A stretch of 64,000 nt of DNA from contig JALGSV010000010.1 in assembly GCA_029821755.1 (NCBI GenBank), positions 57,120 to 121,119 on the forward strand. Reading direction: 5' to 3'. Shown piece after piece: positions 58,992-59,726 of the stretch. Below the pieces are notes generated by a model. The model ran no database searches. It worked only from the letters and a program-made list of their open reading frames with translations, and was not told the DNA's origin. The DNA comes from Candidatus Zipacnadum vermilionense (GTDB taxonomy: Bacteria; Armatimonadota; Zipacnadia; Zipacnadales; Zipacnadaceae). Position 1 is the stretch's first letter. The number at the start of each line of letters is the position of its first letter. The position numbers and the translations under genes are program-made.

Positions 58992-59034
58992 GAACCCACC
59001 CCCCTGCCCCCCTCCCTGATAGGGAGGGGGGTGA
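58992..59034 (-). repeat. Left inverted end of the DUF559 cassette
   Basis: GAACCCACCCCCCTGCCCCC then CTCCCTGAT and an AGGGAGGGGGGTGA arm. Same architecture as the dispersed repeats at 31231 and 53289. Confidence 0.8.
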
Positions 59035-59129
59035 ATAAGAAATCGGGTTCGAAGATGGGAAATGGTCTCGGCCGGGTCGCCAGGCGATTCGGGTGGACGG
59101 CGCCGGCCCTTTGCCTTTGGTCTTAGCGG

Positions 59130-59540
59130 TCAGTCCTCGTCAGACTCCGCCCAGACAGCCGCTGGCCTCGGACACGTTTCGTCCGCGGCCCGCACTATCT
59201 CGGCGAGAACCCCGTCCATGTTCGACAGTACTCTCTGGTTCGGGAAGCGAAGGATCCGTATGCCCAGCGCCCGCAGATCGTGGTCGCGCTCTTCGTCGCG
59301 TTCCCTCTGGCTATCGTGAACTCCTCCGTCCAACTCCACCGCCAGCCGCACGCTGTGGCAGTAGAAGTCGACAATGAACCGATCGATGACACACTGCCGG
59401 CGGAAGTGCACTCCTCCCAGGCGATGGCCTTTCATCTCGGCCCAGAGCGCCTGCTCGGCCGGAGTCGCCTCGCGCCGCAACTGGGCCGCCCGCTCCCTTA
59501 GCGCCCGCTGGAAGACCGCATACTCGCGTGAGTAATTCAC
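59130..59540 (-). CDS. DUF559 family endonuclease-like protein
   Basis: 136 aa. A PD-(D/E)xK/Vsr-type nuclease fold: RRQCVIDRFIVDFYCHSVRL (D in IVDFYC) and LAVELDGGVH(D) (E and D-x-G), then LRALGIRILRFPNQRVL. The opening helix LRREATPAEQALWAEMKG is the family N-terminus. DUF559 proteins resemble Vsr/restriction nucleases but have no settled function and are often found as solitary genes. The start ATG 59540 lacks a strong ribosome site. It is bracketed by inverted repeats, so it may move or drive the movement of the cassette (inference). Confidence 0.9.
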   Translation of the reverse strand: MNYSREYAVFQRALRERAAQLRREATPAEQALWAEMKGHRLGGVHFRRQCVIDRFIVDFYCHSVRLAVELDGGVHDSQRERDEERDHDLRALGIRILRFPNQRVLSNMDGVLAEIVRAADETCPRPAAVWAESDED

Positions 59541-59684
59541 TGGCCTTTCCCCTGACGATCAGTTTCCCGTACCGCGCGAGCGACCCTTCATTCCTGCCCA
59601 GCCCCTCCACCACGCCCGCCCCCTCCCGACCCGATCTCTCATTTCCCCACCCTATCCCCCGTTTCCGAAACCCCATTTCTTCAT

Positions 59685-59726
59685 CACCCCCCTCCCCATC
59701 AGGGAGGGGGGCAGGGGGGTGGGTTC
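59685..59726 (+). repeat. Right inverted end of the DUF559 cassette
   Basis: TCACCCCCCTCCCCATCAGGG arm continuing AGGGGGGCAGGGGGGTGGGTTC; the reverse complement of the left end. Confidence 0.8.

Follow-up and report, generated by a model that had tools for sequence, protein, structure and literature searches.

A DUF559 nuclease gene between inverted copies of its own repeat: a candidate transposase-free relative of REP elements with a triplex-motif layout

We identified an intact DUF559 nuclease gene enclosed by inverted repeats in a window of 64,000 nucleotides, the whole stretch of DNA analysed here. The pairing of a DUF559 gene with its own inverted repeat is well supported and recurs in several bacterial phyla, and the flanks are gene-specific, each DUF559 gene keeping its own repeat variant. 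As read from their sequence, the repeats are arranged as in the BoxC/PIT/TMECO intrastrand triplex motif. The best reading of these observations is that DUF559 would be the dedicated nuclease of a transposase-free class of REP-like elements, and the window cassette is more aptly regarded as such a family's gene-carrying form, with the solo repeats and the doublets found elsewhere as its gene-less forms. The DUF559 family is widespread and, to our knowledge, has no settled role.

The inverted ends of the cassette, which an earlier note on this DNA had pointed out, are real: two arms enclose the intact ORF (Table 1) and share 29 bases of unbroken identity (58992-59020 versus 59698-59726), which run into a 10-bp hairpin and then into weaker matching sequence. 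The repeat unit reads CCCACCCCCC-TG-CCCCCCTCCC-TGATA-GGGAGGGGGG. When up to three mismatches were allowed, a 35-nt core of the arm matched the two arms only within the window and was absent from 100 shuffles. The gene between the arms matches PF04480 and not Y1_Tnp, and the cassette is neighboured by genes for a DegT-type aminotransferase and a xylose-isomerase-like TIM barrel protein. The solo repeat copies claimed for the window came down to one diverged copy, with no DUF559 gene beside it, and a scan of the window for tagged pyrimidine hairpins returned no other. An Rfam scan of positions 58500-60500 gave a match at chance level only; read by eye, the 63-nt arms contain neither GTAG nor CTAC, and no target-site duplication was obvious beside them. 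Elsewhere in the window (60753-63999, minus strand) lies a tandem cluster of four adjacent similar ORFs, three of which start within the window and share a pilin-like stretch beginning MRTKGFTLIELLVVIAIIAILAAILFPVFARAREKARQNSCLSNVKQ.

Table 1 Features of the DUF559 cassette and of the solo repeat, in positions of the window
Feature	Position	Strand	Remarks
Left repeat arm (cassette end)	58987..59049	+	63 nt; 92 % complementary to right arm
Predicted triplex unit, left arm	58995..59031	+	From sequence; tag is the stem mirror with T read as A
Mirror tag of left triplex unit, CCCACCCCCC	58995-59004	+	
First stem strand of left triplex unit, CCCCCCTCCC	59007-59016	+	
Second stem strand of left triplex unit, after the loop, GGGAGGGGGG	59022-59031	+	
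DUF559 nuclease ORF, intact, 136 aa	59130..59540	-	PF04480, 120.5 bits; conserved D58, E69, D71, H75
Right repeat arm (cassette end)	59669..59731	-	63 nt; inverted copy of left arm
Predicted triplex unit, right arm	59687..59723	-	From sequence; layout as left unit, read on the minus strand
Solo repeat, layout of the window arms, more diverged	53291..53334	-	Tagged pyrimidine-hairpin scan

The source genome (4.39 Mb, 115 contigs) contains further copies of the ends. The genome-wide search that the earlier note had proposed returned 28 BLAST matches, counting both strands and the window's own arms, with several copies on contigs C70, C69, C65, C71, C37 and C17. For counts across genomes we utilized the pattern ACCCCN{2,5}CCCYTCYCN{3,20}GRGARGGG, which the window's own arms narrowly fail; it occurred 85 times in the source genome (two of the copies overlapping) versus once for a reversed-pattern control, and two of the 85 copies are both ends of a DUF559 cassette on contig C71. 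Inverted doublets were absent from the source genome, its two close pairs being direct. Three of its seven PF04480 matches have inverted flanks, namely the window gene and those on contigs C21 (L009) and C71 (L012), the latter two each with inverted repeats of its own sequence; no strong inverted flanks were found at L011, L013 and L014, and L015 overlaps L011. The gap between the DegT and isomerase genes, put forward as the place to compare in relatives, was uninformative: the best DegT matches (G001, 79 %; G002, 70 %) are on short contigs and show neither the cassette nor a conserved gap, five such loci being without a cassette match, and in G001 the isomerase match falls on a different contig from the DegT match. 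With the DegT loci on short contigs and the isomerase on another contig, the window cassette has no clean empty site. What stood of the proposed nuclease-driven mobile cassette is the gene with inverted ends and the solo ends elsewhere; no movement of the window cassette itself was seen in this comparison.

Matches to PF04480 were present in 54 of 101 genomes, comprising the source genome and 100 related ones. Together with the window, 80 fetched hits gave 81 loci, 73 of which were flanked by 300 bp or more on either side. An inverted repeat of at least 40 bits between the two flanks was found at 35 of these 73 loci (40 genomes), versus 3 of 916 control positions within the same stretches. No pairing between flanks of DUF559 genes from different related genomes reached 40 bits (0/365), which argues against the mere matching of G/C runs that the earlier note had named as a possible refutation. 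A second set was drawn from named genomes of Pseudomonadota, Chloroflexi, Planctomycetota, Nitrospira and other groups as the best 80 of 315 confirmed loci, 70 of them with enough flank; here 37 of 70 reached 40 bits, versus none of 321 control positions and 14 of 350 cross-gene pairings. Tagged pyrimidine hairpins occupied both flanks at 24/73 and 25/70 DUF559 loci in the two sets (controls, 0/966 and 0/321; RAYT loci, 0/27) and at least one flank at 39/73 and 42/70 (controls, 13/966 and 7/321; RAYT loci, 1/27). About half of the DUF559 loci in both genome sets were without strong inverted flanks, and those of N. gonorrhoeae and P. aeruginosa scored 31.2 and 22.0 bits, respectively, with no strong inverted flanks either.

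Between genomes, similarity of the proteins correlated with similarity of their repeats (rho 0.248, p 0.001; 87 loci with flanks of at least 35 bits), and did so in the 39 related-genome loci alone (rho 0.245, p 0.001). Repeat specificity is loose between related genera, as seen with a Stenotrophomonas flank end, which matched in at least 19 of 22 genomes, at least 68 times in its own genome and at least 47-61 times in three related ones. Plasmids of Azospirillum were considered as a case of movement and rejected, the gene being at the same place in all five records, four of A. brasilense and one of A. argentinense, and a stretch of about 10 kb being 93.6-99.99 % identical; among the copies, only that of A. 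argentinense carried 40-bit flank repeats.

The repeats at DUF559 genes are built of a pyrimidine 5′ arm, a loop and a purine arm, and the tag adjacent to the stem is the mirror image of that stem, with T often replaced by A. A set of 168 hairpins, drawn from 107 DUF559 loci by requiring ACCC or ATCC next to the stem, gave tags that agreed with the mirror of their own stem at 0.895 compared with 0.777 for swapped tags (sd 0.006, maximum 0.800, 2000 shuffles). An unselected set of 467 asymmetric-stem readings from 124 loci, representing 48 distinct stems, yielded 152 perfect mirror versus 26 perfect direct tags; on the 3′ side of the stems the figures were 107 mirror versus 15 direct. Because both strands were read, one hairpin can count twice, and this accounts for the 3′ figures. 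These counts include shared descent; the coupling nevertheless holds across many different stems. Tags are oriented outward in the window and in the pairs of G049, outward also in HsdM, where they were read from the peptides, and inward in Sphingomonas. Within a single strand the window arms combine a pyrimidine stem, a purine stem and a mirror third strand, the elements by which BoxC/TM motifs are recognised, and they differ in letters from the E. coli BoxC/TM consensus printed in PMC4666352. That consensus was matched at 12 of 143 DUF559 loci versus 5 of 1287 controls.

BoxC/triplex repeats have been known from E. coli since the 1990s, and more than 260 genomes are reported to contain them (PMC4666352). 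According to the same source, E. coli oligonucleotides carrying the BoxC/TM motif fold as a triplex in vitro, an in vivo footprint did not support a stable triplex, K-12 has five inverted pairs of the TMECO motif, and a linked mobility gene is reported as absent. The words 'DUF', 'endonuclease' and 'ycjD' do not occur in the accessible portion of that text, and the accessible portion of PMC2267715, which treats BoxC as a stem-loop family, mentions none of DUF559, ycjD, endonuclease or transposase; in the open-licence literature we found no paper linking DUF559 or ycjD to BoxC-type repeats. One of the published copies, TMECO no. 9 at 1351204-1351239 of K-12 (PMC4666352 Table 1), falls about 170 bp downstream of ycjD, the DUF559 gene of K-12 (1351407-1351760, minus strand), and at most 46 of 4760 K-12 features (about 1 %) could flank the 23 TMECO motifs. 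Only one side of ycjD carries repeats in E. coli. A sapF-ycjD-fabI query was covered to at least 80 % by one place in 3362 of 5426 E. coli genomes, and in two of the remaining genomes that were inspected (L320, L321) an RND efflux operon adjoins fabI. Presence and absence of ycjD in E. coli was consequently rejected as an empty-site case. This operon, which has a TetR-type regulator, occupies the side of fabI where K-12 has a BoxC cluster and ycjD. As a separate observation, a single mismatch is retained at a fixed place in many of the TMECO stems of E. coli (type 'mm'; PMC4666352 Table 1); by eye, the flanks of two DUF559 loci (L211, L269) show the same T-C mismatch, and the paired nuclease has a Vsr-like fold.

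Gene-less doublets were seen in other genomes. The repeat pattern was present in 47 of the 101 genomes; G049 has 77 copies, and among the 38 listed there are 7 inverted pairs 100-130 bp apart, with 0.04 expected, while 3 inverted pairs were found among 33 copies in G061. The end of a Sphingomonas cassette (L246) matched in 9 of 22 genomes searched, with E values below 1e-7 in four Sphingomonas genomes only. From 16 of 20 fetched stretches we could read out 16 inverted Sphingomonas doublets of 95-123 bp, both ends of which are the same as those of the DUF559 cassette, and the 415-bp cassette is itself such a doublet with the gene as its filling. It occupies the same place in all four species, among which no move was seen. 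One doublet of G116 is shared with G113, and G114 and G115 lack it. A second doublet is restricted to G116; as a clean empty site it was rejected, its site being a hot spot that holds unrelated repeats in the other three species. Such a hot spot for unrelated repeats is seen at L353:3000-3140 in comparison with L369-L371, where the insert in one linker differs between all four Sphingomonas species; the linker gene looks, by eye, like a biotin carboxylase.

Repeat load is paired with DUF559 presence only moderately. At least 5 pattern copies were found in 21 of 54 genomes with any DUF559 match versus 5 of 47 without (p 0.0013), and in 17 of 40 genomes with a match of at least 85 bits versus 9 of 61 without (p 0.0025). 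Where RAYT was present, the figures for any DUF559 match were 20 of 45 versus 4 of 27 (p 0.011); where it was absent, they were 1 of 9 versus 1 of 20, numbers that are small and not significant. Five genomes with at least 5 copies have no DUF559 match, one of them being G086, which at 97 % completeness has 137 copies on 7 contigs. In several repeat-rich genomes, G062, G075 and G055 among them, the DUF559 matches are weak, and no copy of the pattern turned up in 15 of the 40 genomes whose DUF559 match is strong. In Legionella, a repeated segment carrying a transposase and DUF559 has been described as a recombination hotspot (PMC12308824).

DUF559 blocks were also found inside methylase genes. 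An Eco57I-type methylase ORF of 1565 aa at L083:331-5025 (minus strand) contains an in-frame DUF559 block flanked on either side by repeat-encoded peptides, and at L099:7675-9075 (minus strand) DUF559 with repeat-encoded linkers lies in frame in an HsdM-like protein, a solved relative of which (3khk) has no DUF559 block. A homologue search with the latter scored 7999 proteins, of which 120 were listed; 54 of these 120 carry DUF559, a share biased upwards by a query that itself carries the domain. Three sites are used in the type I M subunit (P0121-P0233). Among the 120 listed homologues, counts of DUF559, repeat only, empty and not callable states, the repeat-only state being recognised by a custom peptide pattern, were 6, 3, 64 and 47 at site 1 (where one call, P0131, is mislabelled), 21, 13, 65 and 21 at site 2 and 19, 12, 64 and 25 at site 3. 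A DUF559 tree required 7 site changes among 45 proteins, compared with a minimum of 12 in 1000 shuffles. DUF559 in HsdM has thus mostly kept its site during inheritance but has switched site several times, and the mislabelled P0131 may account for one of these switches. Elsewhere (L112:6704-8002, minus strand) DUF559 occurs in an intein-like frame, for which the Hint_2 and Intein_splicing matches are weak and fall short of the curated cut-offs; L135 and L102 resemble it by eye, and no Hint or intein-splicing match was found in L135. In connection with Thermosynechococcus inteins, PMC9403480 mentions a DUF559 gene belonging to the EDxHD homing family.

An AlphaFold2 model of the window protein, built with 46 homologues, reached a pLDDT of 85.1 and a pTM of 0.74, and the 46-homologue alignment shows full conservation of D71 and H75 and near-full conservation of D58 and E69. 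Foldseek matched the model to the putative endonuclease-like protein NGO0050 (3hrl, E 3e-7), to the homing endonuclease I-Bth0305I (3r3p, E 5.6e-5, TM-score 0.75 by target) and weakly to Vsr (1vsr, E 0.053); the predicted fold is that of a homing endonuclease. A DUF559 protein of Caulobacter, VsrA, has a genetic tie to cytosine methylation and the SOS response and has been proposed to act in T:G mismatch repair after cytosine methylation (PMC12907096). Neither gene next to the window gene encodes a methyltransferase, so that a Vsr-type link to a cytosine methyltransferase was not found among these two neighbours.

We consider it rather probable that DUF559 is a nuclease that recognises repeat ends in their folded form and that it copies or moves whatever unit they enclose. 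In such a mechanism the repeat, in single-stranded or strained DNA, would fold to a hairpin, and the mirror-image tag would supply a third strand by folding back onto the stem. The Vsr/homing-like PD-(D/E)XK enzyme would nick or cut at two such ends in inverted orientation, and repair would copy what lies between the cut ends to a new location. The gene-less unit would then be an inverted doublet of about 100 bp, resembling a MITE or a REPIN, the gene-carrying unit would be the same doublet filled with DUF559, and single ends would be remnants. The gene-specific flanks, the coupling of tag and stem, the ends common to doublet and cassette in Sphingomonas and the three states of the HsdM sites are observed, whereas recognition, cutting and copying by DUF559 and formation of the triplex in the cell are steps that we infer. 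The broader proposal, in which DUF559 nucleases of several phyla, ycjD with BoxC included, would constitute transposase-free elements that read intramolecular triplex ends and have passengers of about 100 bp, seems to us evenly poised between right and wrong.

Other explanations account for part of these data. DUF559 might be a homing-type nuclease docking in existing repeat doublets, which another enzyme or replication slippage would spread, a reading we regard as rather unlikely even with the fold of I-Bth0305I as the nearest of known role, a DUF559 domain that shares its frame with weak Hint and intein-splicing matches, and Sphingomonas doublets that far outnumber the cassette; the flanks, however, are gene-specific and go with the protein, and RAYT, the other known REP enzyme, has a different repeat grammar. 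The label 'homing-type' given by the earlier note thus fits the nearest fold of known role, but the cassette is better described as a gene-carrying REP-like form. Repeat-DUF559-repeat blocks in frame in HsdM and Eco57I-type methylase genes, HsdM sites that are empty in many homologues, and a crowding of repeats that is seen at DUF559 but not elsewhere in the same stretches make it quite improbable that DUF559 is a Vsr-like host nuclease for repair or repeat processing, acting on the repeats or sharing permissive gaps with them and mobilising nothing. Such a role would agree with the weak likeness to Vsr among the structural neighbours, with the action of Caulobacter VsrA in the DNA damage response (PMC12907096) and with the inheritance in place of the Sphingomonas gene.

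Mobilisation of the repeats by RAYT (Y1/HUH) transposases, with DUF559 as cargo, would be in keeping with the occurrence of Y1_Tnp (PF01797), which is matched in 72 of 101 genomes, the source genome included, and in 24 of the 26 genomes with at least 5 pattern copies (24/72 with RAYT versus 2/29 without, p 0.0055; effect of RAYT on repeat count given DUF559, p 0.075). RAYT loci, however, have repeats of their own. Of 30 loci returned, 21 had full flanks, and 11 of these 21 had inverted flanks of at least 40 bits, which served as a positive control for the flank test, but none (0/21) showed the DUF559 repeat grammar, and a DUF559-type tagged hairpin occupied one flank at 1/27 and both flanks at 0/27; we judge this explanation at most as probable as a host-repair role, and if anything slightly less so. 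The RAYT genes of the phylum (L177-L198) have long inverted flank repeats of a different grammar. Two genomes have repeats and no RAYT match, G062 with 57 copies and G095 with 11, and these do not favour DUF559 either because the DUF559 match is weak in G062 (21.6 bits) and lacking in G095. CGTC-tagged REPs, which have no transposase according to Di Nocera et al. (PMC3733652), were tried as a second partner of DUF559 and rejected, with 10 of 143 DUF559 loci versus 79 of 1287 controls. That the repeats are look-alike G/C-rich terminators brought together by chance is barely conceivable: those of the window are indeed short, G/C-rich and palindromic, but the control positions (3/916, 0/321) and cross-gene pairings (0/365, 14/350) rarely or never gave such flanks.

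Pairing DUF559 with BoxC/triplex repeats, the reading we prefer, gives both a testable function, and in K-12 it can be tested directly with ycjD and the 23 published TMECO copies. If true, the orphan BoxC/triplex repeats would gain their enzyme, and the REP-like world, so far tied to RAYT, would gain a second and unrelated enzyme class. It also suggests that a DNA triplex could serve as the recognition form of the end of a mobile element.

Among known systems, I-Bth0305I shares the fold of its catalytic domain with the window DUF559 protein; it belongs to a phage self-splicing intron, and we know of no repeat ends for it. The likeness to Vsr and VsrA is one of fold class, VsrA carrying a DUF559 domain. 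The BoxC/PIT/TMECO repeats have the pyrimidine hairpin and mirror third strand of the DUF559 repeats, but they were described without a mobility gene, and the window copy shares their layout and not the letters of the E. coli consensus. The REP-RAYT systems (REPtrons, REPINs) and TIRYT/TIRtrons likewise have a small enzyme gene between inverted palindromic repeats, a repeat variant of its own for each gene, and gene-less copies and doublets scattered in genomes (PMC3733652). As in REPtrons, inverted repeats surround the window gene and gene-less copies lie elsewhere, with doublets in other genomes. However, the REP-RAYT enzyme is an HUH/Y1 transposase whereas that of the window is a PD-(D/E)XK DUF559 nuclease, and the REP tag is GTAG whereas the DUF559 repeat lacks GTAG and has the mirror image of its stem as tag. 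Because enzyme and tag differ, the window element would work like a REP-RAYT element without being one, and because enzyme and element end differ from those of each system compared, we set the DUF559 system apart as a new kind. If any enzyme with an inverted-REP unit is counted as one kind, the DUF559 system would be a variant of that kind.
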